Shown in pieces: positions 11,117 through 54,114 of a stretch of 64,000 nt of DNA. The stretch's first letter is position 1, and each line of letters opens with the position of its first letter. Where the stretch lies: NCBI GenBank assembly GCA_949318235.1, contig OX439127.1:2261672-2325671 (forward strand), in the 5' to 3' direction. This DNA comes from Ecdyonurus torrentis. Lineage: Eukaryota; Arthropoda; Insecta; Ephemeroptera; Heptageniidae. The translations under genes were made by a program, and so were the position numbers. A model generated the notes under the pieces. The model saw only the letters and a program-made list of their open reading frames with translations. It made no database searches and was not told the DNA's origin.

Positions 11117-11117
11117 T

Positions 11118-15171: not shown

Positions 15172-15200
<29 letters not shown>

Positions 15201-16584: not shown

Positions 16585-16887
16585 ATTATATAATTCACGC
16601 ATACTAGTTTAGAATGTCAAAACAAAATATTTATATAGAAACCATATGTTAATTACGCCTGGTCCGTGCAAGTATTAATTTTTCAAGTGCTGCTTATATG
16701 AAAAAAATTAATTTATTTTGCATGTAACTAATATGCGTTAACTATTAATAATAATATGGCTTTTGTTTGTGCATGGTATAATGTCAAAAACTTTTCTTTT
16801 TTTTTTTTTTTTTTTTTTAATTTTGATTTTGATTTTTTTTAAAGTGCAATAAATTTGAAACCAGTACACTGCATTTTAAAGTTTTCT

Positions 16888-19310: not shown

Positions 19311-19311
19311 A

Positions 19312-19446
19312 TAAAGGAACAACTGTTTTGAAGCCGACTATAAGCAATTTCGATCACATCCGCTTCCGTTTCGACTTACTGCACATGTGTATAAGGAGAA
19401 ACGGAAGCGGATGTGACCGAAATCGCTTATAGTCGGCCACAAAACC
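19312..19446. repeat. Foldback element, GGAACAACTGTTTTGA family
   Basis: ATTGACAGATAAAGGAACAA, followed by CATCCGCTTCCGTTTC and its inverse GAAACGGAAGCGGATG. The right end is decayed and replaced by repeats of AAACCTACTA. Mirror 44,438-44,572. Confidence 0.7.
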
Positions 19447-19816
19447 TACTAAAACCTACTAAACCTACTAAAAACCAATAAGTAACTGAAAAAGAGTGCC
19501 GTCATAACCAATGTCGCAATCAAATGTATGTTTACTGTGCCATCAAGATCTTCACCTTGTCATCATGGTAAAATCTCGATTTTGTGAAGTTCAATTCTGT
19601 GAATTTCTCAATTTTGTGAAATGTCAATTTTTTGGTTCCATTTTCACTAAATCGAGAGTTAACTATATTTCCCAATTTATAATTTTTTAACAAAGCAAAC
19701 TTAATAATTTTTTGAAAACATATTACAAAACAACACAGAAAAGAAAAGATGTAAAAATTCTATACTTATAGTATAATCAAAAGTAATATTCTAATGTTAA
19801 ATATTATGTCTTATAG

Positions 19817-19988
19817 GCTCGTTTCAACACAACTTTGGATCCACAACGTTTGGGTTACTCTAGTTGCATGGACATGGCACAAAACTTGCCTCAGGTATTC
19901 CAGGTAGAACGACCCAATACCTATAGTGATGCTATAGTTAAACCTGCAGGAGCCACACCTAGACCTGCAGTCTCTGCTGTTACACAAG
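19817..19988 (+). CDS. Exon 1 (left): end of LOTUS domain 1
   Basis: The acceptor TCTTATAG precedes and GTATTT follows. It encodes RLGYSSCMDMAQNLPQVFQV, the second helix-turn and last strand of a LOTUS fold, then a Pro/Ala-rich linker. It ends in phase 1. The mate at 43,896-44,067 differs by one silent base. Confidence 0.8.
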
Positions 19989-24931: not shown

Positions 24932-24967
<36 letters not shown>

Positions 24968-32912: not shown

Positions 32913-33177
32913 TGTTTTATTTCATATTCTAAAAAAAGAACATAATCCTGAATTGATACATATGTGAATTTCTAATTTTTAAGTTCATTAAACATTTTAA
33001 GTTAATTTTTTAATGTTGCAGTTAGCTGGTTAATTTAGCTAACACAGAGATAAAAAAAAAATAATAAAATAATGTAAAAAGCCATACCTATAATGTGTCT
33101 GAAATAAATGTAACATTTTTATGTATATAACGTTTTAGTTTTGTCTAATCCAATGTAACATACTATGCAATACTTAC

Positions 33178-33493
33178 TCATACAATATATCTGGTTGTTC
33201 TATTTTAGGTTGAGTTTGTGACCTAATCATGTCTGCTGATGGAGGTTTGATGATGCCACCCACTCTTGTTGTAAACATGTCCTGATACCTGGAACTTCCA
33301 GGACTAAAGTAGCTATCAGGACTGGGTAACGTCATACTGGGCTGAGAGATCGGACGACGCTGTGACGTCCCACTGTTCTGTGACAATGGTCTGCTCTCAC
33401 GTCTCGCAATAGCACGTTCAAGTACTTGACTTAAGGGAAATTTTCTGGGTTCTGGACGGGGAGGAGCTTCAATAGCACGCTGGCAAGGGATAA
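33178..33493 (-). CDS. Exon 9 (right)
   Basis: Mirror of 30,235-30,550. Amino-acid changes against the left copy: Ser to Pro, Leu to Phe, Ser to Leu and Lys to Gln, plus one silent change. Splice sites intact. Confidence 0.75.
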
Positions 33494-34236
33494 CTGCAAC
33501 TCATGATTTTCAGAATAATGTTTATAGTTATGGAGAAGCTCAGATCATTAAAATTCAAGAAGTTGATGTTACTACAGTTTTGTAGAAGACATGTCCATCT
33601 TGGTCCCTATCATTAAGTCATTATGCAAAACTGTAGACTTGTAGAGTGCAAAGTATCTATGTATGTATATGTACAGTACACCTTGGTGTTAAATAAATAA
33701 ATAAAAAGTCATGAATGATGTTTCTTAACCCTGTTTTCACTTTCTTTGTTGCATTGAAAAAAAAAATCCAAAACAATTTTACTTGCAGATATGGTAGATT
33801 AACATGTGTTAAACTACTCTATAAGAACCTCTTTTTATAAAAAGCCCAAAGTTAACAAATAATACACAGTATAAAATTGTTGTGTTGCCGCTATAATGTA
33901 AGATGTACGTTGACCCCTCCCAATTTTTTTTTTTTTTTTTTTTTTAGCTGCAAGTGACTTAACATTGAAAAATCCAAAATGTCATGGAGTCTATCTAACA
34001 TTTTTTTTTTTGAAGGGTCAAGTGGAACTTGTACCGCACAGAAATCAAAAGCTTGTACGGCAATATAGACAAAAACACAACACTAAAAGTGCAACTTAAT
34101 CATTTCATTTGGGTACATTATAACTAGGGATCGGATTTTCAGTTTTGAAAATGTGCATTTTCAGTACTGAATTCAGTCCAGTTTTTTTTTTTTTTTTTCT
34201 TTCATAATCAGTTTGAAAAAACAGCAAAATCAGTTC

Positions 34237-34501
34237 ACTTTCAGTTCAATTATACAAAAACAGTGAAATTCAGTTTTGATAATTTTTAACTTAAAAACAA
34301 AATTTTATTTTTATATGGTAAAAAAGTCCATTTTTAGTGTCCAGAAAAACTGAAGAAAAAAACTGGAAAAACTGACAAAAACTTAAAATAACTGGCCCAG
34401 TTTACAAATTTAAAAAAAAAAAAAAAAAAAGGTTTTTTTAGTCCAAACTTTTTTGCATTTTTGGCAATAAAACTTCAAGATTCATGAACATTTGAACTCA
34501 G
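34237..34501. other. About 260 bp present only in the right arm
   Basis: The left arm passes directly from GGTCGCAT to GAACTGATTTTGC (about 29,466-29,482). Here the two are separated by AAACTG-rich sequence with an A run. A deletion in the left arm is the simpler reading because the extra DNA resembles its flanks. Confidence 0.7.
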
Positions 34502-34587
34502 ATGCGACCTAGCATGCAATATTTCAAAAACTGAACAAACTGGAGATCCAGTCCCTAATTATAACACAACCACAACAATGCGTGTAC

Positions 34588-34749
34588 CTGCAGTATGAGA
34601 TGCCGTGTTGTCCTTCAAAGTTTCAACAAGTGCGACGACTGTCTCCTTCTCTCCGTACCTTTCCTTGATTTTATCGACGAATTCAGTCATCATTCGGTGA
34701 ACCTCTGATTTACCCTGAGAGCTATCTTGAGAAGATGATGTGAAGGGTA
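34588..34749 (-). CDS. Exon 8 (right)
   Basis: Mirror of 29,225-29,386, identical by eye, with intact splice sites. Confidence 0.75.
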
Positions 34750-35250
34750 CTGTGGAATCACAAAAATATTGTTGCTATTTTTATTCAACAGACACACTTG
34801 TTGTAGAGCATAACATAAATTATCATAATATTATTAAAGGTAACTAAAGGACCGAATATAACATAGCGATAGGAGATTCAGAAACACATATTTTATCCCA
34901 TGTTAAATTAAATATTTTCCCAATCCATAGAACATGATGAAATTTGTTAGTTTGAGCTAATTTTAAAATTTGATAGCAATTTCAGGGACACTTTTCGAGA
35001 TGCAATGAACGGAGAGTAAAAGTGCTAGTCAATCCATAAGCCAGTGCAGCAGCCTCAGCCAGTCAGATTCAAATACATTTTCGCGATAGTTGAACACAAA
35101 TAGAGAGTCTTGCCAGCACCAAGGCAGCTGGTAAGATGAACTTTTTGGAAGTGAGGATTTGGGAGGAGCATGTGCGACACAAGCTGCTATAGTATAGCTA
35201 TACTATAGAATTAGCTATATAGTATATCTATGTGTACATCTTGTATATGA

Positions 35251-35592
35251 CCTTATAGGGAAAGTTCAGGGGTTACAACATGGCTTTTTCAAGGTTAGAT
35301 AATGAGAAGAACTGTTCATTGACTCACATATGATGACGCAAAGCCCTTCCGTAGCCACGCAAACTTACACTCATTCTGCAAGATATGCAACCTGCTACAA
35401 CATTTCCTATACAGTAGTAAAGCCATATAACTATGACGCAAAAAAATACAGGACGAGTTGCATATCTCACAGGATAATCACGATTTTGTGGGGCTACGGA
35501 AGGATTTTGGATCATCATAAAATGAGTTTATTAACAGTTCTTCTCATTTACATTGAAGAAGCCATGTTGTAAACTCCTAAACTTACATCTTC
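35251..35592. repeat. Foldback element, mirror of 28,386-28,728
   Basis: Same family and position as in the left arm, with scattered substitutions. Confidence 0.75.
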
Positions 35593-35654
35593 AAATAAAC
35601 TTATTTGCCAGTATTTTTTATTTTATTAATTATTATTATATTTGTGTATTTCAC

Positions 35655-35850
35655 CTGGTGTATGTAAACTAGACGCAGATCGTATCTCCATGTCATATTC
35701 CTGAGGTTCTTCCTTGATCTGCACTGCATCACCTGAAATCTCACTGGGCGAATGGATCCACTTAGCGTATCCATCACGTACCATCTGGTCACTGATGTCA
35801 ATGTCAGTCATGCCAGAGCCGTCAATCAAGGACACTGTCATGGACTTGTC
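35655..35850 (-). CDS. Exon 7 (right)
   Basis: Mirror of 28,127-28,322, identical by eye; end of extended Tudor domain and the IKEEP motif. Confidence 0.8.
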
Positions 35851-36365
35851 CTGTAAATATGACAAGTAAAATATTAATGTTAAGTACAGTATTCGTAAAA
35901 TTAATCAATTGAGGGCTATAGGAGCCATTTTGGTACATACTGCAATCTCAAGAATGAAAACATCCAAACAATGTATCATATTTATATGTACCTATAACCT
36001 GATGTGAACTAATAATAAATTTTGGCACATCTGCATTCTCTGTATTTCCCTCTTTTGAAACATCTTTGTAAGGTTAGCCTGCACAGGTGTGCTAATAGTA
36101 GGCCATTAGATGATTGCACATGTGCCAAAATTGCACTCGTGGAGATTGCAGAAGCACCAAAATGTTGGTAAGCTCTTGAAATGTTAAATAATACTTTTTT
36201 TAATGAATAATTTTATAATCTTTCTCAAAATAAAAAAATATTAATAATAACCACAAAGCTTGTCTACTTTCAAAGAAATGTGTATATATAAAGAAACAAA
36301 AAAAAGAAATTAGAACAATTGGAGTGGACTGGAGGCAGAGCAGAGCAAAGAAGAGCAGAGCGAAG

Positions 36366-36461
36366 AGGAGAGGAGAGGAGAGGAGAGGAGAGGAGAGGAG
36401 AGGAGAGGAGAGGAGAGGAGAGGAGAGGAGAGGAGAGGAGAGGAGAGGAGAGGAGAGAGAT
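36366..36461. repeat. (AGGAG)n microsatellite, about 19 copies
   Basis: Mirror of the CTCCT run at 27,400-27,613 but less than half its length. Confidence 0.95.
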
Positions 36462-36836
36462 GATAACAATATGAACACAACAACACTAATATATAAAATG
36501 TTTCTAAACCCTGTTCTCTTTGCTCCAAAAAATGTGCAAGAAATCAGCAACATCAAACCTATCGAAACCACAAACATCAAATCAATGCACTCCTGGAATG
36601 TGCTTTTTGACGCCATACTTGCTGAGCAATGAATAACATTGCTCAAAGAAAATGTCATTTATGTTTTTTTTTTTTTTTTTTTTTTATAATTTTTATAGCA
36701 CACTTGAAAACTCAAAACATTTTTAAACTGGTAAAATGTATCATATTCCCATACCAGCCCATGTTATTTGGTGCTCACATATGGTGTATGTAAATGTAAC
36801 CTTGCTACATTTTACATCCAGTACAAGCATCCTTAC

Positions 36837-37064
36837 CTCTGGATTGATAGAAGTGACAGTGCATGTAAGAGGATTCTTGCTTCTGACGAGGCTGAGGAAA
36901 TGTTGACAAGCCTCTGTAGGCCACACTGTGGCATCGTTCAGAGGCTGTACGTTGAACAACTTGCACATTACAGCTTGAGGAGGCAGTCCAGCTATTTCCT
37001 TCCTTAAGTGGAACAGTTCTGATGACTTTTTCTTAACATTGGTACCATAGTCAACGTAGAAAAG
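36837..37064 (-). CDS. Exon 6 (right): Tudor core
   Basis: Mirror of 26,797-27,024. One silent change and Met to Ile in KEMAGLPP. The FYVDYG motif is intact. Confidence 0.8.
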
Positions 37065-37463
37065 CTGAAATTAATTACATAATTAAATGTTGCATTTCTA
37101 TAACAGTGGAATGGGAGATGGTATGATTTTACACTTACAGAGGGACACTATGGTAGAGAAAATATTATAACCCAGGTCAAAAGGAAATTTATAATTGTAT
37201 GTAAAGTGGCTCATATTGCTCGTCAAAGGTGAGCTTCATAAAAAAAGGAGGAATTTTGGCTTGCATATTGGTTAGATGGCATAAACACAAACACACTATC
37301 ATTTTCAGCACCATTTTCTTTGTAAGTGTTAGCTCATACATCTCCCAATGCCAAATTTTTTCTAATCTATCCATGTGATTTTTCTATCACATTTTTAATT
37401 ATCACTTATCAAACAGACAATTTTTTTCTAATATTTAGGAATATTAATATAAACTAAAATATT

Positions 37464-37926
37464 ATTAAAGCTATACTCTCCAGACCTAAACAACATGTAC
37501 TTTTATTTCAATTGATACAAAATGTGACATTCTGTAACATTTTGTCAAATTTCATTATTACTTTATTACCCAAATGAAACTGCAAGAGAGTTCCAAAAAA
37601 TTGTAAGAGTTGTAGAGTAGGCAAAACGCACTATTGCTGACGACACGACATATTCAACAGAAAAGGTGTTGCGGGTTTCATAAGTTGAAAATTTTCTTAT
37701 ACGTTTAACATGGTACATAAATGAAATTTGTGACACTAAATTGGTGGGATGGCGTTAGTTGTCTTCTACGTATACCTAATGGCGATTTGTTTTTTCTACA
37801 GATATGGTCATCCAGCAACATTTTTAACTGATTGGGCTATTGGACAAAATATTTGAATTTTGGAAATCCCATTAAGTGTTAGAAATAAAAGGGTACCATG
37901 TTGTCTGGTCTGGACAGTTGCTTTAA
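37464..37926. mobile_element. TTAA-flanked MITE, mirror of 25,941-26,396
   Basis: Same TTAA termini, again touching the exon 5 donor. Confidence 0.75.
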
Positions 37927-37931
37927 CCTAC

Positions 37932-38079
37932 TTTGCACTCGCAGTCTGAGGTGAGGAGTCCATCCACTTTCATGATCAGTCCACGATGCCACTCTCCTTC
38001 ATAGATGCTTGCCACCATCATTCCAGGCTGAACAGTTTTTAGTCTCAGTCCAGATATATCAGTCATGGTGTACATATTT
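37932..38079 (-). CDS. Exon 5 (right): Tudor strands 1-2
   Basis: Mirror of 25,788-25,935. Val to Gly (SVLRL becomes SGLRL) and Val to Glu (IYVGEW becomes IYEGEW). The second falls in a Tudor strand and may destabilise the fold. Confidence 0.8.
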
Positions 38080-38962
38080 CTGAGGGGAAAAAAATATTTA
38101 AAAAGGCGTGGATAATATGTTGAAATATATCCTAGAATACCTAAAAATCAACTTTGATTTGACTGGAGTCATTAATTTTCCATTTACAAAATAACAGTTG
38201 CGATTTTATTGACTAATAAAGGAACAACTGTTTTGAGACCGACTTTAAAGCGATACTTAACCCTAAAAAAAGTATTTTTTGTTCTTTTCTAAAACAATTC
38301 AATATATTTATCCTAATCAATAATTATGCTAGGATGTTACTCATCATTTAGACAAGTTTTTTGTTCAATGTGTTTTACGACTTTAAGTTTTATGGTGATT
38401 GACTAAGTGCAAAAGTGAAAGTATAGTGAACAAACTCAAGAGATCTATGAAATGTTATGGTAGATGTCATAATATATGCTCAAACGTTTAATATTGTAAA
38501 AGAAATGGCAATAGCTTAACAGGTGACTCAAACATTTCTAAATATGTATTGTAACTGACTGTACTGTAAAACACTTGGGTTAAAATGAGAGGTTGTATGT
38601 CTGATTTCGCCCAATAAAGGCCGTTAATTATTATAAAAAAAGTGTCCTAATAATTAATGGAGCTGGATACCAAATATGATTCTACTCAAGCAATTAAAAC
38701 ACAAGACAATTATTACAACTATAAACCACAAATCATGAAGAAAAGTGTTCTTGCTATTCAAATTATGTACCATACCATATATTAATAAGGAGGTAAAATG
38801 TAGCACCACTTGGATGAATTCCTGTAGTTGTGACTAAACATAAAGATCTTAGGGTTTTAGCCTGATGCACGCGTAAAGACTTCCACATTAATAAACGTGG
38901 TAAAAAAAAAAAAAAAAAAAAAAAACTGTGCTGCTGATGATAATACAGATATAAACACTTAC

Positions 38963-39147
38963 TGTAACTCATCCATGAGTATCTCAAGCTCTTTTCCATA
39001 GTTTTTGGTATCAAACTGAATGTAGAACTTGTGAGGAGTGTACATGTCTGCAATGGTTACGTAAGTATTGCATCCTGGGGTTAAGTTGTCAGGGAATTCA
39101 AATGGTGGCAATGTCTCCATGGGCTGCATCACGCTGGGCACGCGTAA
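38963..39147 (-). CDS. Exon 4 (right)
   Basis: Mirror of 24,712-24,896; one change, Ile to Met after MQP. Splice sites intact. Confidence 0.8.
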
Positions 39148-39229
39148 CTAAAATCACAATTAACACACAAATTAAGACTGAAACACACATGAATATGATG
39201 TCGTGTTTCCACATAAAATTTGAGGCGAG

Positions 39230-40822
39230 CTCACAGTATATTATACAGTAGGTTATCTCCTATACTGAGAATGTCAGATATTATGAGCGCTACAATTGCG
39301 ACTGGGTGAAGACTGCAGAACTAGACACGTAACGTTACTTCAAATGACTGCTTCTAGTTCTGCAGTCTTAACCCAGTCGCAATTAAGACGCGCATTTGAT
39401 CTGACATTTTCAGTATATGAGATAATCTATTGTATAGCTACTGTGAGGTGCGCCAAAACTAACGTGTTCAAATGTAACCTCTCATTTGTCTGAAACTGTA
39501 TAAATGATTATAAATCCCTATCAAAAATGTCTGATTAGAATATTCCAATTGGAATATTCCAATAGGAATTTGGCGTGCATTCTAATTGGAATATTCTCAT
39601 TGGACGTACGTTTTGATTCCTATTGAAATTTTTGATTGGACAATTCTGATTAGAATGAATTTGATTGGAAATTTCTAATTGGATATAAATTCGATTGGAT
39701 GCATTTCATTGGAATTTATTTTTATAATACACTTTACATACACAAAACATATTTTTCAAGTTTAATACATTACAAACTATAAAAAATAATATCACTAAAT
39801 GTTTGTTCTTATAAAGTGTTAAAAAATCTACTTAATGGCACACTGGGTATTAAATCCTTGATGTTGCATAGGCTGCGGTGCTTTCAACGTTGTGCTGACC
39901 TGACGTATATACAACCTTAACAGGACAAAAACTGTAAACATAAATTTAAGCTTTTGTTAGTATATTGAACGTTTCAATACTAAAAAGTCATAGTATTAAG
40001 ATAATTTACCTTAAATTATTCCTAACATTCATGCGGAGGTCATCCGGGCTCATAGACGAATTCATTTGCGGTATCGCAGTGGCCAAGCTGCGCACATATC
40101 TGCATTATATTACCGCAGGCTGAAAATTATCAAATACTTTATTAGTTTTAAGAAATAAGGAATTCTGTCATAATGTGCATGCTTATACAAAAAAAAAATC
40201 AACATTTTTATTCAATCATATAATATATTGCATGATTATACATTTGATTCAATTTATTTTAGTTTTCTATTCAATTTCTTCTACAAAAAAGAGCATCAAT
40301 TTTACACACAAAAATACTGACATACAGCACAGAACTAAATACAAAATTATTTGCTTTAACATTTTACCAAGTTATTAAAATTAAGATTATCATATTTGCT
40401 TACCTTTTAGTAATGATTTTCTCTACTTAATTTAATAATTAAGTAGAGAGCGATGCTTTGATCCACCGGCGTCCATTGGAATAATTTGCCATGTGTAATA
40501 TCGATCTTCACCTTGATTTGCGCAAAAATTTAAAAAGCCTAACGGTTTTCTCTATCCAATTAGAATGTTCCTTTCAAAAATACGACATCTAATGAGAACA
40601 GTCCAATCAGTTTCATATTTTGCTGCATTCCAATTAGAATCAGACAATTCAATTGGAAATGTCCAATTGAAATCGGAGAAACAGACATTCCAATTGGAAA
40701 TTTCCAATTGAATTCGGCTGATTCTAATCAACTGCGTCAAATTTGATTAGAATGTATATTATTCTAATTTGAATACCCGCAATTCCAATTAGAATAATAT
40801 ACATTCTAATCCGTCATTTTTA
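39230..40822. mobile_element. Foldback and ATTCCAATTGG element, mirror of 23,034-24,645
   Basis: 39,230-39,525 is the foldback and 39,531-40,822 the 1.3-kb element. The half-copy direct repeat follows to about 41,000. The same composite structure occurs in both arms, so it predates the duplication or haplotype split. Confidence 0.7.
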
Positions 40823-41449
40823 ATACTTCAAATGACTGCTTCTAGTTCTGCAGTCTTAACCCAGTCGCAATTAAGACGCGCATTTGATCTGACATTTTCA
40901 GTATATGAGATAATCTATTGTATAGCTACTGTGAGGTGCGCCAAAACCAACGTGTTCAAATGTAACCTCTCATTTGTCTGAAACTGTATAAATGATTATA
41001 AATAACTTTGGAAACATTCATAGCTACCTGGTACTTTACAATCAATCATCAGTTAAGCTCAAGCAACACTCTAAGGCAAGAAATCAGCTACTACGGGATT
41101 TGACTAAAGTTGTAAAGAAAGAAAAATCTGAAATTTTGCACAATGTGACACATTAGGATAAGGTATCTTCAAAAATGCAAAAAAAATTGGGGAGTCACCA
41201 TGCTAGATTTTAAATTGAGATTTTTTGGAAGTTTTAGTCCCATAAGAGCCCATGTTAATTCATTAATTATTTTCTCTCTTATCTGATGGTCATAAGTTCC
41301 AAAAATTTTATCATAGGTAGCTGTTACTGTTAACTTTCAAATGGCATCATAAAGTTTGCAAATTTTCTTTTTATATTTTGAGATACTAGCCATCTGAATA
41401 CAACCCTTATGACAATCCGACAGAAGCTAAGGTTCACAAAACTACTTAC

Positions 41450-41617
41450 TAAACCCTCCGAGATGACTGCAGAGGTTGCCTGGAAGTTCTTGGCAAAGAC
41501 TCGATATGACCCATCGATCAAAGAGAGTATCACATCTGAAGTGGTCAGAGAATGAAGCAGCTCCTTCACGTCCTTATATCCATACCTGACTGAGTCTAAT
41601 ACATTGCCATGTTGACC
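41450..41617 (-). CDS. Exon 3 (right): LOTUS 2, second half
   Basis: Mirror of 22,239-22,406; Pro to Ser in LDPVRYG and one silent change. Confidence 0.78.
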
Positions 41618-42498
41618 CTAGAAACATACACAACAAATTTTATATCAATAAAGGGTGGTTTCATTCATGTTAAAGTCAATGTCATAAAAGTGAGTACTAA
41701 ATAACATTGGCCGGTATAGGAAAATGGCACATTTTGCCAGTTTAAAAACACTTTGCAATTTTTTTGAGGGCATTGATGCTGTTACCAGGTTGAATTAGTA
41801 CCTCAAGTATGCAAGAAAAATAATAATGACCAAAAAAAAGCTAATTTTTTAAAGAAAATAGCCAAAACCTACGTTTGTCCTATGCTGAGCAATATGTTAT
41901 TCATTGCTCAAGAAGAGTAATAATGTCATTGCTAGTAATAATGTCATTTTTATTTTCTACACAATTTGTAATTATGATTTTGCTTCAACATGAGGGTATT
42001 TCTCTCTGAAGCAGGCTAACATACCAATGCTTGCCCGTCAAAATGAATGTATTACATTTTGCAAATTTTGTTCAAAATGCCCGATCTACACTTTACAAAT
42101 TTCAAGTTTACCCATACAGTTCTCCTGTTAAAATATGTAGAAGCGCCATTTTGGACTGATCGTGCATTTTGAGTCAAATTTGTAAAGTGTAGTTCGTTCA
42201 TTTCGATGGGTAAACATTGATACACAGGGTCGGACTGGGGCTGGCACTCGTACGCAAAAAGGGTTTAACATCCTCTCTAGGGGCCACAGAAAGGGGTGTA
42301 ACACCCTAGTTACGCCCTTTTTTGGGCCTAAGGGGGGGGGAGGGGGGGAGGGGACGTCCACTAACGCAGACTTGCTCTTATGGCCAGTACAAGCGTGTCG
42401 ATACATGACCTTTAAAATTTTATGTATTGTGTTCTATGAGTTGAATAAAATAAAAAATAATTTTCTTTAATGATAAGACTATGGTAATATTCATTTAC

Positions 42499-42614
42499 CT
42501 GCTAAGCCTGAGCAAAGAAGTCTACCCCAATACCGTACGTTGAATAGGTTCGTAGTAAGTTGATGATGTTCTTCCTTACCTCGGCTGGTACCTTGGGTGT
42601 CAAATTAGTGGATG
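42499..42614 (-). pseudogene. Exon 2 (right): LOTUS 2, first half, with nonsense codon
   Basis: Mirror of 21,241-21,356. Two silent changes and TAC to TAG at 42,502-42,504, giving FFAQA then stop. The donor and acceptor remain normal. Confidence 0.8.
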
Positions 42615-43895
42615 CTGCAAAAAAAAAAAAAAAAAAAAAAAAAATCAATTTAAAGACTTGCATAAACAATAAGCTTCTATAAATGAATTCTGAAAGATCA
42701 ATTAAAAAAAATATTAATAATTCCAAAAAAATGAGCACCTATATTTCATTGTATCATTTTTTTTCCTCCTCAATGAGGAAGACTAAAAAAAAAAAAATTG
42801 GGAGGGGGGGGGGGGATTTAATAAATTCTAAAAGAGAACAATAATCAATAGATATGCAAATTTGTAATTTTTTGAGTAATGAACTCAAAAATTACAAATT
42901 TGAATATCTATTAATTTAGGAGGATGTTTTCTTTTAGAATAGGAAATGAAATTAAACTTTTTTATTTTTGTTATTTATTATTACCCTATTATTTATTTTT
43001 TTATTTATTTTTTTTTAGTTTTTAGTTGGTTTCCTTTTATCAAATTCTAATATGGGCTTAATTTTTATATGGTTTATTTGATTTTTTTTTAATTTCTTTT
43101 TTGTCAGTGTTCAAAACAATTTAAAATTATTAACCTATAATTAAAACTTTTTTTTTTTAAATAATAGAGAAAAGTGGGTGAGCTTGTGGATTTGAAAATT
43201 AATAAACTGCAGGTTCTTTAATTTTTATATAATTATTACCTATGGTTAATTGTAACTTTGGGTTCACATGTTCTAGCACTATGGTCTATATTGATCTTCT
43301 CACACCAAAATGAAATGTGAAATTCACAAAGGATGAACAATATATACACTTGACAAAGTGAAGGCTATCTGGAGCTTCTGCTATATAAAACAGGTGAGAA
43401 TTCTTCAGAAAGATACAGATTTGTAAAGTGTAAGAAGCTTCAATTTGACGTAAAAATAATGATATGCAAGAAAAAAAAATAAAAACTATAGTAGCTTAAC
43501 ATTTTTTTTTTTTTTTTTTTTAACATTTACCTTTCTTTTACTAAATTGCTTTGGTATGAGCACAGCTTGCTGATTGGCTGATTGCAAGAATGTAAATATG
43601 CGACCAATCTATTTAAAATATGTATAAAACCAATGTGAAAAAAAATACAAAAAATACAAAAAAATTAAAAATCAAAAATACAAAAAAAAAAAGAAAGAAA
43701 ACTTTGTTTGTTGAGCTTGGTGGGCACAATTTGCTACAGACCAGTCTGACTTTTTCTCATGGCCAATCAAAACCTTTGCAGGTCCTATGAAGCCAGGAAG
43801 TAGTCAAGGTAAAGGGGTTGGTTACATATGACCTAAATAAATAAATGGTAGAAAAAAAAAAAAAAGTAAAAGCAGTTATCGTATAAATAAAATAC

Positions 43896-44067
43896 CTTGT
43901 GTAACAGCAGAGACTGCAGGTCTAGGTGTGGCTCCTGCAGGTTTAACTATAGCATCACTATAGGTATTGGGTCGTTCTACCTGGAATACCTGAGGCAAGT
44001 TTTGTGCCATGTCCATGCAACTGGAGTAACCCAAACGTTGTGGATCCAAAGTTGTGTTGAAACGAGC
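43896..44067 (-). CDS. Exon 1 (right): end of LOTUS 1
   Basis: Mirror of 19,817-19,988; one silent change (TCT/TCC). Confidence 0.78.
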
Positions 44068-44437
44068 CTATAAGACATAATATTTAACATTAGAATATTA
44101 CTTTTGATTATACTATAAGTATAGAATTTTTACATCTTTTCTTTTCTGTGTTGTTTTGTAATATGTTTTCAAAAAATTATTAAGTTTGCTTTGTTAAAAA
44201 ATTATAAATTGGGAAATATAGTTAACTCTCGATTTTGTGAAAATGGAACCAAAAAATTGACATTTCACAAAATTGAGAAATTCACAGAATTGAACTTCAC
44301 AAAATCGAGATTTTACCATGATGACAAGGTGAAGATCTTGATGGCACAGTAAACATACATTTGATTGCGACATTGGTTATGACGGCACTCTTTTTCAGTT
44401 ACTTATTGGTTTTTAGTAGGTTTAGTAGGTTTTAGTA

Positions 44438-44572
44438 GGTTTTGTGGCCGACTATAAGCGATTTCGGTCACATCCGCTTCCGTTTCTCCTTATACACATG
44501 TGCAGTAAGTCGAAACGGAAGCGGATGTGATCGAAATTGCTTATAGTCGGCTTCAAAACAGTTGTTCCTTTA
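44438..44572. repeat. Foldback element, mirror of 19,312-19,446
   Basis: Same GGAACAACTGTTTTGA-family hairpin in inverse orientation. Confidence 0.7.
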
Positions 44573-45610
44573 TCTGTCAATATTGTTATCACTCTAAGGC
44601 AGGTTTATTGGATTGGGTCCTTTGGGGCCAGTAAGTGGTCAAGGTATGGTTACAAGGTTGGTTACATATGACCCAAATAAATCAATCAATCAATGAAAAA
44701 GAAAAAAAAACTTTTGTTTCTTAAGCTTTGAGGGCAAAATTTGCTAAAGACCAGTCCGACTTTTTCTTATGGCCAATCAAAACCAGACTCTTTATTAGCA
44801 ACTAAAGAAGAGTGGACCATCACCGTTGACACATTTTAAATTGTTTTAAATGTAGCATCAAGATCTTCACCTACACTTCACTGTGGTAAAAAGCTTCTTA
44901 ATTTAACTTTGATAATTAAAATTTACCAGTAATGATCGGAGGCTCAAATTAGTATATACCTATAATTAAACATGAAAATTAAGTTTATCAGCAAAGTGGA
45001 AAACTTAAATAGTTTTGAAAACATATTGTTATATTATAAGAATTTCAAAAATAAATAATAATAATAATAATAACAGATTGTAAAAACCCAAATTTAAAAT
45101 AAAATCTTTTCTACATAATATTGTCGGTTAAAAATTCAACCAGCAAAAATTATAATAATGAACATTTTTTAAATAAGGTTTAATAACCCCAAAATTTACT
45201 AACTTTTAGGGATAGAATATAAGGAACAATTAAAATTAGTTAACTCCGACTACATTTTTTTAAATTTTTAAGTAAAACTTTTTCCAATTTAATTATCTAT
45301 ATTTTTATTTCATAATTATTTGGATTTCTTTTAAGTTACTGATAGTAAAAATAAATGGAGTGGTGGTGGCTAAAATCACTATTTTGTTAAATTTTAATGT
45401 TAACATGAGTTCACATACTTTTTTAACATGAAACAACACAAAAACTAAACAAAACAATTATTTTACTCTCCTTTTTAATGATGTTATATAGTGTGAAAGA
45501 AAAAAAAACAGAAAAAAATATAACCTAGGCAAAATTCATAATAATAATTTATAAATAATTATCGTAAAACAAAAATGTCTCTGAATTTGGAATTAGTGGA
45601 GCCTCATTCG

Positions 45611-45942
45611 TTAAAGAGAAAGTTCAGGGGTTACAAGATGCCTTCTTCAAAGTTAGATGATGAGAAGAACTGTTCATAAACTCACATATGATGACCCAAA
45701 GCCCTTCCGTAGCCCCGCAAACTCATTATCATCCCTCGAGATATACAACTTGTGCCGTAACTTTTACGTCATAGTTATGGCTTTACTATAGAAAATGTTG
45801 TGGCAGGTTGCATATCTCACAAGATGAGTGCAAGTTTAAGGGGCTACGGAAGAACTTTGGATCATCATATGTGAGTTTATGAACAGTTCTCATTATTAAA
45901 CATTGAAGAAGCTATGTTGTAACTCCTGAACTTCCTCTTTAA
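45611..45942. mobile_element. TTAA-flanked foldback, mirror of 17,938-18,269
   Basis: TTAAAGAGAAAGTTCAGGGG to CTTCCTCTTTAA; both TTAA ends intact. Confidence 0.85.
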
Positions 45943-46720
45943 GGAGAAGAAAATTACATAAAATTAAAAAATGCAGTCAGGCCTATGAATAGTAGCGCAT
46001 TATTTTAAAATCTGGGTTTTTCCAAAATGCCTTGATAAAAATTTAAAAATAATATTGTAATAAAATATTTTGTGCATATCTTATACAAAAATTAATAGTA
46101 AAAATATTAAAAACTAATGAAAGCTAATAAAAAATTACAATTGAAGAAATATGTGAGTTTAAATTTATAAAATATATAATAGAAATATAAAAACAGAGAA
46201 AAAAAAGATCAAATGTAAAAATTCAATACATATAAAAATTAAGTTTAAAAAACAAACTAATTTAATTTTTAAAAATACTATTATAATAATTTAACTATAT
46301 AAGCATAATCTTATAAAATATATTATCAAAAATGCATAATACGCAATTTTTAATAATACTAATGCTCTTTTTTGGTGCGTCGCCATTCGTATAAGTTTTT
46401 TAAAAGGATCAAATAATAAGAAAAAAGGTTTAGGCAAAGGTGTGAAAAGGAAAAAAAATATATAGGTATAAATTAGATATGAAATAAGACTATTTCAAAT
46501 CTAAAAAAAATGTGTATGATTAATTAAGTATAAAATTGGTGTTAAGTATTTGTGTCTTTTTAATACATTCATTTAATGGCAATGAAAAATAACTTTTTTT
46601 TTTTTTTTGTAATTCTGATTTTTGAAAAGAGCATAAAATTATGATCCAGCACATTTTTTTTTTTCTAATAATATATGTTTGAATTTTTTTTACACACAAT
46701 TGAACCATTAAAAATACTGT

Positions 46721-46983
46721 TAATTGATGATCAAGGTCCATATATAAGAGGTTAGAGATGCTCCTGGAAAAGTTTTGGCCAAGGTCGCGCAGCTTAAAGG
46801 AATTCACCAAAGACGTCATATAACAGGGTGTATTTTTATGCACCTTATTAGTGACGTAACTGGTGAACGCTGGTGAACGGCATCGGCTTAGAATCAAGTA
46901 CACCTATCACAAAATAAAATCAAATGCGCGAGTTTTGTGATGCGCTCAACCTGTTTATTATATGGACCTTGATTGATGATCAG
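46721..46983. repeat. MITE, mirror of 16,888-17,148
   Basis: GATGATCAAGGTCCATATA at the left and TATGGACCTTGATTGATGATC at the right. Confidence 0.75.
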
Positions 46984-47286
46984 AAAACTTTAAAATGCAG
47001 TGTACTGGTTTCAAATTTAATGCACTTTAAAAAAAAATCAAAATCAAAATTAAAAAAAACAAAAAAAAAAAGAAAAGTTTTTGACATTATACCATGCACA
47101 AACAAAAGCCATATTATTATTAATAGATAACGCATATTAGTTACATGCAAAATAAATTAATTTTTTTCATATAAGCAGCACTTGAAAAATTAATACTTGC
47201 ACGGACCAGGCGTAATTAACATATGGTTTCTATATAAATATTTTGTTTTGACATTCTAAACTAGTATGCGTGAATTATATAATTAT

Positions 47287-47398
47287 TAGTGCTGTTCATT
47301 AATCCTATCCACTGCTCATAAAATGACGATCATCTTTGGTTACTCACATGGAATGCGCATTTTTTGTTACATGAAAACAGGGTTTACGAACAAACACT
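47287..47398. repeat. Short foldback, mirror of 16,471-16,584
   Basis: Ends GGGTTTACGAACAAACAC, inverse of the GTTCGTAAACCC terminus. Confidence 0.6.
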
Positions 47399-48223
47399 AT
47401 TATGATCTATGGTAGCTTAGATGGTGCAACATTTTCAACTAACAAAAATAATAATAATAATAAAAAAAAAAAAAAACATTTTTTTTTTAACTAAAAATTT
47501 GCGTTCAAATAAATTTATTGCAAATTGAAAGTATTTTGCATCACGTAAATAGGCTAATTATTATATTCAATAGGATATATATAAAAAAAATAAATAAAAT
47601 AAATTTAGGGAAATTATAAAATTAAATCATTGAAAAATAATAATTATGGTACATTTCATTTGTGCAATATAAAATAAATTAAAAATAATTAAGGGAGTAG
47701 ACTACAATTAGTTGTTAGCAATCAACCTCTTTAACTTTTTTTACATTAAGGCTTTTTTTTTTTTTTTTTTTTTTGAAAAATATAATTTAACAATGTTTAA
47801 ATTGCGGAATGTATGTATGCAAATCACAAGATACGTGTGCTTTCCCCCCTCAAATTAACATTTAAGTTTGTTTTTTTATATAAATATAATTTACATTTTT
47901 ATCCCGGAATTACAGTAAACTTTAGCAAATAATAATGTTTAATGGTTCTAAAAAGAAATAATACCGATATAATATAACAAAAAAAGCCTTGATGTAATAA
48001 TAGGATATATAAATACAATTTTACAAATAAAGAATAAATACAAAATAACGTTTGTATATTTTAAGAAACTTAATTAAATGCTTTGAGTTTACTGTATTAC
48101 AAAGTATCACACAAAAATATACGTTTGAAGAAAATTTAAGGTGAAAGAAGTCAACTTTTGGAAAGCCTGATATGTCTTACATTTTATCACGCTCTTTTCC
48201 CTCTTTAAACACAAATAAATCAC

Positions 48224-48565
48224 TTAAAGGAATAGGCCAGAGAAAAACTTAAGCATTCAAATCACAAAACAGTTGATGGGATTTACATAAATAACATTAC
48301 TTTGTGTCAAAACCCACAGTAGCCCCATAGCAGTGATCAAAAATTTCGATTTATGCAACCCGCACAACATTGTCATACTAATTTTTGCATGTTACTGACG
48401 TCATAAACATGAATTTTCAAGCAAATTGCATACTTTAGAGTTTTTTCATGCTCTTATGTGGGGCTACATTAAAATTCTGGTAAAAATTGTAATTAGTTTT
48501 GAAGATCCCATTTCGTGTTTATTCATTAAAAAGCACATGTTGTTTTATGTGGTCTATGGCTTTAA
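48224..48565. mobile_element. TTAA-flanked MITE, mirror of 15,306-15,647
   Basis: TTAAAGGAATAGGCC to GGTCTATGGCTTTAA. Confidence 0.7.
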
Positions 48566-48695
48566 TGAATGACATTCAGGAATATAAAGTTAAAAAAAAA
48601 GAAAGAAAGAAGAAAGTGCTTGAGTTATTTTATAATACCACCCAGATAAATGTTTTAAGTTTTTTAGTTTTTTAGTTTTTTTTTTTTTTTTTTTT

Positions 48696-49472
48696 TTAAG
48701 TAGTTTGAACGAGTTTTGATATTATTTAAACGCCATTTTAGTGCTACCTATAGATTCCTTATTTCTCTATGCTCCTATTGATGTAATAAAAAATACATTT
48801 AGTTCGAAACGCAAATAAAAAAATAGCCGCAAAGTCGAGCATTTTCCTCATACAACATTGGTTAATGGCTGAAAAAGCCAGGATCCTTCCACAGTAGATC
48901 ATTCATATTTCTGCGAAAGTGTATTTAAATGGACTCAAAAACAGATAAATCAGCTCTTTGATAAACAAAGAAACTTTTAAAAGCATTAAACTAAATTTGG
49001 TTCGAAACGCACTGAGAACTAAAAGAGCTGAAAATGAGAATTTTTTTGTTAACCAGTAATTTTTATATAGTTCGGAAATCGGCCGCTAGAGGTGCCGAAT
49101 CATGGCGATCGCGAACGATCGCGGGAGAAACGAGATATAAATGTCAATTGAGCTCATAAACGTTAATAAAACTCTTGTAATGTACTTAAATTGTGATAAC
49201 TTCATTATAATTAATTAATATATGCACTGAGAAGCGAGAAAATTGTTTGATTAGAAAATAGTTACAAAAAGCAATATATATATGATTTGCTGGATTATCT
49301 CTTAGTGCCTACACAGCACAGTTTGGTTGAGCGCCGCTTTTACATGACGAGGGTCAGCGGATCGCGACTCGGTTATTGAAAAGTTTTTAATGATTAAATT
49401 AAAATTAAGTAAGCACCAAACTGCAAATAAATTTAAAATCAGCTGTTAACAATCTCGTTCAAACTACTTTAA
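48696..49472. mobile_element. Single TTAA-flanked element, mosaic of the two left-arm tandem copies
   Basis: One copy only, 777 bp, with the outer flanks of the left tandem pair. Its minus-strand sequence has copy 1 bases at GAGATTGTT and CAGTTTGGTGCTTACTTAA, but copy 2 bases at GTTAACAGC and from CAATAACCGAGTCGCG onward. It contains the tRNA-like segment at 49,304-49,378 (plus strand). Confidence 0.8.
49304..49378 (+). other. tRNA-like segment inside the TTAA element
   Basis: A-box-like CAGTTTGGTTGAGCGCCGC and B-box-like CGGATCGCGACTC. The stems are poor. Mirror of the segment in copy 2. Confidence 0.45.
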
Positions 49473-49736
49473 TAATAAAAAAGTTGATAATTTCACTTTG
49501 ATAAATATTGACTTGTAGAACAATTTAATTAAATAATGGCACCATCATGTTCAATACGTACTAAATATTCTGGGTATCTGAATTCTAAACATTTAACCCT
49601 GTATATTAATGAGATCAGTGATATATTATGTTAAAACAAGTCTTAATTGACGTGTCTAAAGGAAGAAAATAGGTGAGTGGGGGGTATTTTATTGCATTAA
49701 CTGAAAGAAAATACGGTTTTGAGTGTCTTGAATCAA

Positions 49737-50832
49737 TATATCGAACGCGCAGGATGTTTAGGACGTATCAGAGAAATGTATTTTTTCGTAAACTTTGAAG
49801 TTTTGAACATCATATCGCAGCAACGAAAACATTGAAAAATATTTAATGCCTATCATCTAAAAGCCTGTTTAGTTGGCAATGTATGAGCATAGTTTCAGAT
49901 TTTTCATGTCAATAATAAGCTCGCAAAAAATTAATTAGTAACTGAGAGTGCCTTTTTATCTCGGAATTTTCAGAGGTATGCCAACTTAAGCTGACATATC
50001 TACGTTATCCATAATACAAAAAAATTGAAACTTATTTTTTATTGTGTATAAACATTCCTAGTACACGCTACAATACCGAAAAAAAATTGCAAAAATTTGC
50101 ACTTGCCAAAAATTAGCAAAATCTAGAACTCAATGTATCTCCAGATTTACTGGCGTGATCCAATTAAAACCTAAACTACAAACGTATTTAAGTGTTCTTT
50201 TAACAATGCTTTTAAAAAAATTAGCGATTTTTGATTTTACGGAGATTTACAAATTTTTGAGTGTCTGATGAAGCATGAAGTAGGCAACCCGCCTAACACA
50301 AAATTTAAAAAAGAATTCATTTCTCGTTAGTTAAAACAAAATAATTAAGTTTTATATAAGCACTGTTAAAAAAACACTAGAACACGTTTGTAGTTTAAGT
50401 TTCAATTGGATCACGCCAGTTAATCTGGAGATGCATTGAGTTTTAGATTTTGCTAATTTTTGGCAAGTGCAAATTTTTGCAATTTTTTTTCGATATTGTA
50501 GCGTGTACTAGGAATGTTTATACACAATAAAAAATAAGTTTGAATTTTTTTGTATTATGGATAACGTAGATATGTCAGCTTAAGTTGGCATACCTCTGAA
50601 AATTCCGAGATAAAAAGGCACTCTCAGTTACTAATTAATTTTTTGCGAGCTTATTAATAACATGAAAAATCTGAAACTATGCTCATACATTGCCAACTAA
50701 ACAGGCTTTTAGATGATAGGCATTAAATATTTTTCAATGTTTTCGTTGCTGCGATATGATGTTCAAAACTTCAAAGTTTGCGAAAAAAAAACATTTCTCT
50801 GATACGTCCTAAACAATCTGCGTGATCGATAT
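49737..50832. repeat. Large foldback element, mirror of 12,242-13,336
   Basis: About 1.1 kb of self-complementary arms with the same loop. Confidence 0.88.
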
Positions 50833-51506
50833 GAGCGATTTTTCTATATTTTGAGTTCATTGAATATTAAAAAAATAAATAAATAATAAAAAAAATAATA
50901 ATTGTATGGCTTTACAATTGGTAACTTAAGCGTGCATAACTCATGCAAAATTTACCAACTGTTATGTCATATCACATATTAAAAAAAAATCTAAGAAAAA
51001 TACATAATGAATTCAAGAATTACAAAATCAAACGCAGAACTTGATTTATAGGACAATTCCCCTTTTGGAAAAAAAAATTCAAGATAATAATAATAATAAA
51101 TAAATAAAACTTGGGCTTTCCTCGATGAGTTCAAAACATGTCCAAGTTCCTGAACCAAGACTACAATAAAGAAGGTAAACAAATTATTATATTAATATTT
51201 GATTTCTTATATTCAAGTTGACTACTTTTACCTTTTACATTTTCAACACAACAATGTGCATTACAAAAAGAAAAAAAAAAGTACCGTTACAAATGATTAC
51301 GTTTTTGGTATAAATGTAAGTATGAGGAAATTGCACAAAAATTGATGCTATATTATCTCATCAAGTACCAAAATGCATGATCACTTTTCTACCAAAACTC
51401 ACACATTTAACTGCAAATATTGCGTTTATTTTTTCTTATGGGTCGATCATGCTTGTAGAAGGAATGACCGTTAATATAGTTTGCTTTAGATGTGACCAAA
51501 ATCACT
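50833..51506. other. AT-rich stretch, nothing recognised
   Basis: Mirror of 11,568-12,241; no coding or RNA feature. Confidence 0.5.
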
Positions 51507-51674
51507 TATTGACTGATAAAGGAACAACTGTTTTGAAGCCGACTATAAGCAATTTTGGTCACATCCGCATCCGGAAGCGGATGTGACCCAAATCGCCTAT
51601 AGTTGGCCTCAAAATCGTTGTTTCTTTACTAGTCAATAGTCGGCCTCAAAACAGTTGTTCCTTTATCAGTCAAT
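51507..51674. repeat. Foldback element, mirror of 11,400-11,567
   Basis: GGAACAACTGTTTTGA-family hairpin. Confidence 0.8.
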
Positions 51675-51960
51675 ACAGCATAATTATGGAATTTTAGTTT
51701 TTCTTTATACATAATAAAATATAATTTAATATATTATCCTTATTCTAATGGGTGCTTTTTTTTTGTATTATAATCCATTACGCAACAATTTATTAATTTT
51801 TATTTTACCAACCTTCTGGCATGTTTTTTTTATTTTTTTTATTTTTTTTTTAATACCATTTCACATATTTAAAATTTTTATATTTGATACCTTTATGAAA
51901 TGTTTAATTAAGAGGCATAATAATTTTTATTAGAATAATAAAATAATAATAATAATAATA

Positions 51961-52308
51961 GAGTCCGAGCAATGGGGTGCTCAAAATCACGCGGCTTCTC
52001 AGGTCCCATGGGCCACGCTCCCTATGCTTTCAAACACCCCAATAGTAAAGACAAATACTCAGAACTGTACAAATTGTGTTCAGTGCCAATGCAAACTAAT
52101 TCCTGGTTTATTGGCACGAATTGATAAACTCCAACGTCAAATGGATAATTTAACGCCAGCTGTAAATAGTAAGAAAGACAACACGTCTCTTATTTCTAAC
52201 CGAAATAAGATCCGCATCAAAAAATCAAGTTCTACCCCAGTTTATAATAATAACCACGATCTAATCTCCGGTAAAACTCAGTATCCAGCAATTGACATAG
52301 CAAACTAA
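51961..52308 (+). CDS. LINE ORF1-like fragment, Cys cluster and coiled coil (right copy)
   Basis: The frame is open from the fragment edge (ESEQWGAQNHAASQVPW), with an internal ATG at 52,024. CTNCVQCQCK gives four clustered Cys, LLARIDKLQRQMDNL suggests a short coiled coil, and the tail is basic and Asn/Ser-rich. It ends in TAA at 52,306-52,308 and overlaps the macrodomain frame by about 13 nt. The composition suits an RNA-binding accessory protein of a retroelement, but no named domain is recognisable and the N-terminal part is missing. Confidence 0.6.
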   Translation, partial: ESEQWGAQNHAASQVPWATLPMLSNTPIVKTNTQNCTNCVQCQCKLIPGLLARIDKLQRQMDNLTPAVNSKKDNTSLISNRNKIRIKKSSSTPVYNNNHDLISGKTQYPAIDIAN

Positions 52309-53102
52309 TAATAACAGAAACCAGTGAGGATTTACTTTCATCAAATGAACCCATCATCGCACACGTGGTGGCTGCAGACATGCATTGTTCTGCTGGTATT
52401 GCATTAAAAGTGAAGAAAACATTTGGTGTACCTACTGTATCCGGAAAAAGACTTAGACCTGGTGACATTGTTCCTCATGCTGCAAATAAAAGTTGTGTAG
52501 TTCTCAACGTTGTCTCAAAATACCAGTCGGGTCACAAGTTACGGCAGAATCCCAACCAATTTCTGGTTAATTTTGAAGAAGGCATCAAAGGTCTTGCACA
52601 ATACTGCCAAAAAAACATTATTATGCATATGGCGATTCCCAAAATGGGGTGTGGCCTAGACCACTTGGAATGGGGATACGTAAAATCTCTCCTTCAGAAG
52701 GAGTTTGGTGGCCGCCACATGTCTATCAAAGTGTATTCCCCCTCCAAGAAGGTTGTGGTCCCTACAGCAACTCCTGACGATCCTCTCCCCATGGTCGAGT
52801 CAGTGGTTGTACATGAATTGCCCCCTCCGCTAACTCCAGTTTTGCCTCCACAATCAGAAACTGCACCTCCCTTGGCAACCTATCCTTCCGCTCCTCAACT
52901 TAAGTTCATGGGTAATTCTCCTAATAATTTTTTGTCATCCCCAAGCACACCTCTATGTAACTACTTCCACGCTAAAGATTACATCAACGTTAAACCTCCC
53001 CAACTTAACTCTCTATCATCATCTGTCTGCTCTACCCCCATTAAATCGCCTTTCCTAAATCCCCTCTCTGCAAAGTTCTCTCCGATACCTACAATGGTAT
53101 AA
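52296..53102 (+). CDS. TARG1/OARD1-like macrodomain ORF within a LINE (right copy)
   Basis: 268 codons, open from a TGA at 52,293. It has no ATG before AADMHCSAG, so translation probably arrives from the upstream ORF by -1 frameshifting or reinitiation. Residues about 15-150 form a macrodomain: IIAHVVAADMHCSAGIALKV (substrate loop), FGVPTV, PGDIVPHA, VLNVVSKYQSGHK, IIMHMAIPKMGCGLDHLEWG (phosphate loop) and MSIKVYSPS. The Lys of VSKYQ and Asp of GCGLD align with the catalytic pair of human TARG1, which cleaves ADP-ribose from glutamate and DNA ends. A Pro-rich tail of about 110 residues follows (ELPPPLTPVLPPQ). It overlaps the endonuclease frame by about 58 nt. Conserved in both arms. Confidence 0.85.
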   Translation, partial: HSKLIITETSEDLLSSNEPIIAHVVAADMHCSAGIALKVKKTFGVPTVSGKRLRPGDIVPHAANKSCVVLNVVSKYQSGHKLRQNPNQFLVNFEEGIKGLAQYCQKNIIMHMAIPKMGCGLDHLEWGYVKSLLQKEFGGRHMSIKVYSPSKKVVVPTATPDDPLPMVESVVVHELPPPLTPVLPPQSETAPPLATYPSAPQLKFMGNSPNNFLSSPSTPLCNYFHAKDYINVKPPQLNSLSSSVCSTPIKSPFLNPLSAKFSPIPTMV

Positions 53103-53989
53103 ACGAGAGAAATTTGTTGATCCTTTTGTGGAATGCGGAGGGGCTGAATACACTGCTAAAGTGCATCCCGAAAATTGACATGTTTGGTGACAGGGATGTT
53201 GTGGTTTTTACTGAAACATTTCTGTCACGGCATGTTGATATCCAAGGGTTTTATTCAGTCCATTCGTTTGCCACGAGAGGGCTGAGAGGGAGACCATCGG
53301 GGGGTATATCGTGTTTTATTAAGTGCACTCTTGGACAAATTATAAATAGTGCTGTAGAGAAAGATTATGTCGTTGTGAATTTGCAAGACATCACTATAAT
53401 TGCATTCTATCTCAAACCAACTCTCTCAGAAATTAATGTTTGGGAAATTGTAATATCAGCTTTCAGTCAAGTTCCTAAAGACAAAACTATTGTATTATTA
53501 GGTGATTTTAACTGTAGAATGGATATTGTGAATGAGAAGGGAAAGGCTCTCAGTGAATTGATGGGTACGATTAATCTGGTGTTACTTAACTCGCCTCAAG
53601 ATAAAACTTCTGTTTCTCATAATGGATCCAGTACCATTGATTTATTATTTTATGACCCGTCAAAATTCAAAAATACATCCGTTGTTTTTCCATCCTTATC
53701 TGCAACAACTTTACGTAAACATCTCCCTTTAATTTTTAACTTAACTTGTAATAATAAGAATATACCTGTTCAAATTGCTAATAAACATAAACTTTCAAAC
53801 ATCTTAGATCTTCAGAGATTAAATATTATGTATGAACAAAATTTTATATTGTTAAATAAACTATTGAAGATCAAAATATCGATGGAATCCATAAGTTATT
53901 GCAATCAATTATTTTATACTCAGCAGTCTCTAAAAAATTATATAGTAGAAAGTCTAAACCATGGTTCAATCATGAGTTATATCAACTGA
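53045..53989 (+). CDS. LINE APE-type endonuclease (right copy, intact)
   Basis: The frame is open from 53,045 and the first recognisable residues are LLILLWNAEGLNTLL. VVFTETFLSRH supplies the catalytic Glu, GGISCFIK follows, LLGDFNCRMD supplies the Asp-Asn motif, and STIDLLFYDP the late Asp. The first in-frame ATG lies inside the domain, again implying continuation from the upstream ORF. It nicks DNA for target-primed reverse transcription. It ends at a stop just after SKPWFNHEL-type linker sequence has moved to another frame, so a frameshift near 53,940 separates it from the rest of ORF2. The left-arm copy has a stop in this region. Confidence 0.88.
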   Translation: MAFPKSPLCKVLSDTYNGINERNLLILLWNAEGLNTLLKCIPKIDMFGDRDVVVFTETFLSRHVDIQGFYSVHSFATRGLRGRPSGGISCFIKCTLGQIINSAVEKDYVVVNLQDITIIAFYLKPTLSEINVWEIVISAFSQVPKDKTIVLLGDFNCRMDIVNEKGKALSELMGTINLVLLNSPQDKTSVSHNGSSTIDLLFYDPSKFKNTSVVFPSLSATTLRKHLPLIFNLTCNNKNIPVQIANKHKLSNILDLQRLNIMYEQNFILLNKLLKIKISMESISYCNQLFYTQQSLKNYIVESLNHGSIMSYIN

Positions 53990-54114
53990 AAAAATACTCC
54001 TTGTATATTTTACACAAACTAAAGCAAATTAATTTAAAGACCAGGACCTTTTAAAGCACCTTTGCTGCCGTAAAGAGTTACCTCGAGGGATTTAGATCTC
54101 CCTGAAAAAAGTGT

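Follow-up and report, generated by a model that had tools for sequence, protein, structure and literature searches.

A Predicted TARG1-Type Macrodomain in ORF1 of Several LINE Families of Ecdyonurus torrentis

The Element and Its Layout

The 64,000-nt stretch of Ecdyonurus torrentis DNA analyzed here (the window) contained a decayed copy of a LINE, termed family W, with a normal APE-RT ORF2 after ORF1. The ORF1 of family W consisted of a Cys/coiled-coil-like region, a macrodomain assigned to the TARG1 type, and a Pro/Ser/Thr-rich tail, in this order. With a probability of roughly 0.55, this domain is host-derived and strips RNP proteins or nicked target DNA of the ADP-ribose that host PARPs attach, which would aid target-primed reverse transcription. 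The family names used below (W, W2, B, C, H, P, and Y) were coined in this analysis. The features of the window were as follows.

8962..30700, plus strand: left arm of an inverted duplication (blastn of the window against itself)
33028..54114, minus strand: right arm of this duplication (same blastn comparison)
51934..52308, plus strand: N-terminal piece of ORF1, with a Cys cluster and a short coiled-coil-like stretch (by eye)
52296..53102, plus strand: ORF1 frame with the macrodomain and the Pro/Ser/Thr-rich tail
52311..52745, plus strand: predicted TARG1/OARD1-type macrodomain (structure search, alignment)
52518..52520, plus strand: codon of the Lys aligned with TARG1 Lys84
52659..52661, plus strand: codon of the Asp aligned with TARG1 Asp125
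53045..53989, plus strand: APE-type endonuclease (EN), start of ORF2 (PF14529 2.2e-9, PF03372 6.9e-7)
10772..11143, minus strand: N-terminal ORF1 piece of the second arm
9975..10781, minus strand: macrodomain frame of the second arm, a duplicate and not independent
9088..10032, minus strand: APE endonuclease of the second arm, in two frames because of a stop
1088..3015, minus strand: second-arm reverse transcriptase (RT) belonging to the same element, spread over two frames (RVT_1 E=7.2e-30)

The placement inside a non-LTR retrotransposon, made in the initial annotation, was borne out, since the APE endonuclease and then the RT followed in the same element. A separate macrodomain frame between a Cys/coiled-coil ORF and the APE endonuclease had also been described; the position was correct, but the separateness was not, because the domain belongs to ORF1. 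In the window copy, the N-terminal piece was out of frame with the rest of ORF1. In the copy L112 on C11, the Cys/coiled-coil part, the macrodomain, and the Pro-rich tail were joined in a single uninterrupted ORF1 frame (409 aa), with the EN frame next; thus, 51934-52308 and 52296-53102 are the halves of one ORF1.

The plus-strand copy has its RT outside the window, at a position equivalent to 67926-69833. In the minus-strand copy, about 6 kb, tandem repeats included, lay between the EN and the RT. Compared with the family B element L010, the endonuclease side of the plus-strand copy was alignable to residue 392 of the 399-residue frame, and the RT side of the minus-strand copy from residue 28 onward in the overlapping frame that comes next. 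From these limits, hardly any ORF2 coding sequence seems to have been lost at the join. Tandem arrays were observed between the minus-strand EN and RT, at 6396-8133 (shifts of about 106 bases) and 3507-4943.

The two window copies are the product of one event. The arms of the duplication were 97-99% identical overall (98% between 14386-27536 and 49472-36321, and 97% between 8962-14390 and 54114-48694, by self-blastn), and further copies of their parts flanked the window on both sides. A third, partial copy was found 4 kb to the left of the window and a fourth (L111) about 63 kb to the right, at C26:2377234, with its ORF1 likewise split into two frames. Within the 804-nt frame, the arms differed at 3 nt, all of them nonsynonymous (0 synonymous/3 nonsynonymous). 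Because the arms are duplicates of each other with these three differences only, their open frames are no evidence of selection, and the earlier interpretation of the open frame in both copies as a sign of retention was abandoned.

Copies of Family W in the Genome

When the window frame was searched against all 503 Mb of the genome, 89 candidates were scored and 65 matches resulted, other families included. Outside the local duplications, 97% identical copies were found on C11, C12, and C8, with frames of 409, 327, and 410 aa, respectively. Hence the domain was kept in other copies of the family, as the initial annotation implied; in some, such as L115, which also had a stop, the motif was damaged. 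The RT query yielded 3187 first-look candidates, with 97 scored and at least 100 matches. Among the matches listed, three contained an ORF2 frame of 964 aa, and eight formed a sister group at 65-66% identity, with two frames of 973 aa. Matches to the macrodomain frame and to the RT shared a strand and fell within a single element span, for example at C20:24762267-24767180 and C12:36475420-36479057. About 40 of the 100 RT matches listed started inside the query and extended to its end, like 5′-truncated inserts. The copies were thus dispersed and many were without the 5′ part, the pattern by which LINEs are recognized. Judging from these partial matches, the family W copies without the macrodomain are probably 5′-truncated. 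In the family W copy L116, the RT and macrodomain frames were on opposite strands, an inversion perhaps like those in LINE inserts.

Identity of the Macrodomain

The search of the window macrodomain against solved structures gave TARG1 as the best match. The TARG1-like fold was predicted by a confident model, with 23-26% identity to TARG1 in structural alignments, and DarG structures were the next-best matches, behind most TARG1 entries. PMC9411070 describes how Asp125 of TARG1 activates Lys84, which attacks the distal ribose so that Glu or Asp is released. The Lys84 equivalent was invariant in the alignment (12/12 rows), and the Asp125 equivalent was present in all seven LINE rows, which stand for six families. 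Both catalytic residues were also present in family W2 by direct reading. The structure search on the window copy and the sequence alignment agreed, so the earlier assignment to the TARG1/OARD1 type was upheld, and so was the apparent catalytic Lys and Asp; the LINE macrodomain is predicted to be of this type with the catalytic pair kept. The outcome of the profile search suggested in the initial annotation was divided. The Pfam Macro profile gave no match to the window copy at E<=1, and the ORF1s of five sister families were all above the cut-off.

Other LINE Families Carrying the Domain

A genome-wide search with the Pfam Macro profile yielded 27 candidates and 18 matches, and 10 kb around each match was analyzed. 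At 10 of the 18 loci, the macrodomain frame had a LINE ORF2 or ORF2 remnant downstream. These loci were distributed as follows.

Family C: L009
Family B: L010, L012, and L013, the last two with an internal deletion
Family P: L011
Family H: L014, L015, L016, and L019
Family Y: L022

The other eight loci (L017, L018, L020, L021, and L023-L026) had no LINE ORF2 downstream. A further family, W2 (L128), was obtained from the genome search with the window frame, and was 50% identical to W in the macrodomain and 48% in the EN. In total, the macrodomain was found upstream of an APE endonuclease in seven families (W, W2, B, C, H, P, and Y), and the RT was shown in the same element in six of them (W, B, C, H, P, and Y). 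The initial observation is therefore confirmed, and it is broader than first stated.

Family H was represented by three independent copies, 99.7-99.9% identical over 4.9 kb, with common ends and differing flanks; L015 and L019 were duplicates (99.99% over 10 kb). In the three elements, ORF1 (526 aa) and ORF2 (976 aa) were both intact. No convincing target-site duplication was detected at the three loci, the element ends being common to them. The ORF2s of families H and P were confirmed by Pfam to contain RVT_1 and the APE domain. With the family H ORF1 as the genome query, 81 matches were obtained (94 candidates, 82 scored), including further frames of 407-674 aa at 36-41% identity.

The ORF1 of family P possessed a PHD-like N-terminus (PF00628, 20.5 bits, below the 24-bit cut-off). 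Its C-terminal 164 aa (L011), which follow the macrodomain, were considered as an SGNH esterase from a likeness noted by eye, and this candidate was dropped, as the single-sequence model was poor (pLDDT 46).

Purifying Selection on the Macrodomain

Substitutions between copies were counted by the Nei-Gojobori method. For L010 and L012 of family B, the macrodomain had 18 synonymous and 6 nonsynonymous differences (pN/pS 0.094), compared with 10/6 in the RT (0.157) and 3/10 in the tail (1.06), and codons 11-45 of ORF1 had no differences. The pair L010/L013 gave similar values for the macrodomain (18/8, 0.124) and the tail (3/9, 0.96), L012 and L013 being close copies. The differences between L010 and L012/L013, mostly synonymous, were bunched at ORF1 codons 93-131, inside the macrodomain, as if a segment had been swapped in from a diverged subfamily. 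Recombination is likely given this bunching, and the binomial test for family B should therefore be read loosely.

For L112 and L121 of family W, the values were 49/35 in the macrodomain (0.197), 45/32 in the EN (0.188), 24.5/34.5 in the N-terminal part (0.369), and 19.2/29.8 in the tail (0.539). The window copy compared with L112 (2 synonymous/5 nonsynonymous) was not informative, so that neither this comparison nor that of the two arms gave a sign of constraint on the window copies, and the family H copies were 2-4 nt apart in ORF1, too few to judge selection. In both families tested, B and W, the macrodomain was under purifying selection and was conserved about as strongly as the EN or RT and more than the tail. 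The comparison of substitution rates across copies, proposed in the initial annotation, thus showed purifying selection between dispersed copies and subfamilies.

Host-Like Relatives and Module Exchange

Several TARG1-type frames were observed without a nearby EN match: L021 2305-3540, L023 1785-4151, and L017/L018/L020. L018, L020, L021, L023, and L024 were labelled host because no EN match was found near the macrodomain. Two tandem macrodomains were present in L021, the first with Asn for the catalytic Asp.

In the protein database, neither the window frame (368 candidates) nor the macrodomain region of the family H ORF1 (108 candidates) gave a hit at E<=1e-3. The search with an 11-row alignment, whose length limit shuts out ORF1s of 400-570 aa, gave 48 hits from 696 candidates; the named ones were OARD1-like or macro-domain proteins, and a few were hypothetical. 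No relative of the LINE ORF1s from other species was found in these protein-database searches. In viral contigs, at least 80 loci encoded macrodomain relatives (95 stretches matched), and 80 of these had no match to six EN and six RT queries in the fetched flanks (tblastn E<=1e-5). The 233-aa database protein P0044 had a TARG1-type macrodomain apparently fused to a stretch resembling an LTR-retrotransposon RNase H end (by eye), so retroelements of a second kind may carry the domain as well.

In the ORF2 protein tree, W grouped with B (100/100), and C, H, and Y grouped together (98/98). By comparison, W grouped with Y in the macrodomain tree (100/99), and addition of W2 and a diverged W copy gave ((W,W-div),W2),Y at 99/98. 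The EN tree with W2 separated W, W2, and B (100/100) from Y, which fell with C, H, and P. In AU tests, the macrodomain rejected W+B (p 0.0027) and C+H+Y (p 0.0003), and the ORF2 rejected W+Y (p 1e-6). With W2 included, the macrodomain rejected C+H+Y (p 4e-5) and W+W2+B (p 0.009), and the EN rejected W+W2+Y (p 1.8e-4). These rejections came from small sets of 6-8 rows, and family Y was represented by one element, L022. A larger tree of 56 rows did not reject W+B (p 0.126), and the position of Y is therefore firmer than the W/B part of the conflict. The conflict between the macrodomain and ORF2 trees points to module transfer between LINE lineages, and swapping of whole ORF1s among LINE lineages has been proposed previously (PMC4120745).

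The 56-row tree included 40 of the 48 database proteins as ingroup and P0046 and P0047 as outgroup; P0048, five proteins below 130 aa, L017, and the duplicate loci L013, L015, L016, and L019 were left out. The LINE macrodomains were not one clade in this tree, family H grouping with the host-like L023 (96/89), and a single LINE macrodomain clade was not rejected by the AU test (p 0.293). The LINE macrodomain was probably taken from a host TARG1-like gene, in one capture or several.

Proposed Function

Under the preferred reading, the ORF1 protein or its RNP would use the macrodomain as an ADP-ribosyl hydrolase. Host PARPs would attach ADP-ribose to RNP proteins (on Glu/Asp) or to nicked target DNA, and its removal would counter the restriction and allow target-primed reverse transcription to be completed, which would be the role proposed in the initial annotation. 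The conserved Lys/Asp dyad indicates such an eraser: both residues were kept in the LINE rows, whereas the host-like L021 had Asn in domain 1. PARP1 and PARP2 are active at LINE-1 integration sites, and L1 retrotransposition in human cells was lower on loss of PARP1 or PARP2 (PMC8535693). As these PARPs favour L1, removal of ADP-ribose could hinder a LINE, which speaks against a simple model of complete removal and keeps alive a model in which the domain reads the modification.

As a reader, the domain would bind mono- or poly-ADP-ribose at PARP-activated nicks and bring ORF1p and the RNA to integration sites, with Lys and Asp retained for the pocket. ORF1 proteins are nucleic-acid-handling partners, which suits such a role. 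In addition, PARP2 and RPA aid LINE-1 integration (PMC8535693). However, a binder should not need the whole TARG1 dyad that the six diverged LINE families retain, and we regard a reader as unlikely, though it is the strongest of the alternatives. Less probable still is an eraser acting on nucleic acid, by which the RNA or cDNA of the element would be protected; against it, this genome is not known to encode a DNA- or RNA-modifying transferase. What favours it is the rank of the DarG structures, next after most TARG1 entries, together with the reversal of thymidine-linked DNA ADP-ribosylation by both TARG1 and DarG (PMC9411070). A host TARG1-like gene beside LINE debris, or a functionless passenger of one insertion, has a negligible chance of being correct and is already contradicted: the genome does contain TARG1-type frames without a nearby EN match (L021, L023, and L024) and the window copy is broken, but the macrodomain precedes the EN in seven families with the RT following in six, dispersed W copies carry macrodomain and RT on one strand, and the domain is under purifying selection in families B and W.

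For the ADP-ribosyl hydrolase reading, a further-reaching version is put forward tentatively, at somewhat less than even odds: these elements would be a new LINE class, whose active ORF1 hydrolase of the TARG1 type is selected and exchanged between lineages because it neutralizes PARP-based restriction of retrotransposition.

Comparison with Known Systems and Implications

The LINE domain was similar to TARG1/OARD1/C6orf130 (ALC1-like class) in fold, sequence, and the positions of Lys84 and Asp125. Human TARG1 is small, roughly the size of a single domain (its solved chains have 146-160 residues), whereas the LINE version is internal to ORF1. The LINE ORF1 types I-V (Khazina and Weichenrieder; extended by Metcalfe and Casane 2014, PMC4120745) are likewise located upstream of an APE-RT ORF2 and are likewise described as modular and lineage-exchanged, and family P, with its sub-threshold PHD-like N-terminus, may share that feature with them. 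In the ORF1s of the six families scanned, Pfam reported no RRM, CCHC, or esterase family, although distant versions could escape it. The main text of PMC4120745 mentions neither "macro" nor "ADP-ribose". Viral macrodomains (alphavirus nsP3) had 11-14% identity, and the LINE domains appeared to be of the TARG1 type and not of the nsP3 type. The esterase ORF1 of CR1/L2 LINEs (PMC3905857) is also a hydrolase in ORF1, but this esterase is linked to lipids and is not a macrodomain; "ADP-ribose" does not occur in the text of that paper. No report of a macrodomain in a LINE was found among the listed titles and abstract starts from the CC-licensed PMC literature. The elements described here represent a LINE ORF1 type with a TARG1-type macrodomain.

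In several divergent LINE families of this genome, an ORF1 domain looks like a working ADP-ribose-removing enzyme. These LINEs may erase a modification that the host makes where DNA is damaged or places on foreign RNA-protein particles. Macrodomain erasers are present in hosts, bacteria, and RNA viruses. A TARG1-type ORF1 module in intact, apparently young LINEs would add ADP-ribosylation to the conflicts between hosts and retrotransposons, and the tree conflict adds a clear example of LINE lineages exchanging an ORF1 module. If the domain is an active hydrolase, it would be the retrotransposon counterpart of viral macrodomains. Moreover, whether PARPs help or restrict LINE integration becomes testable, with a natural candidate eraser in which two catalytic residues can be changed.
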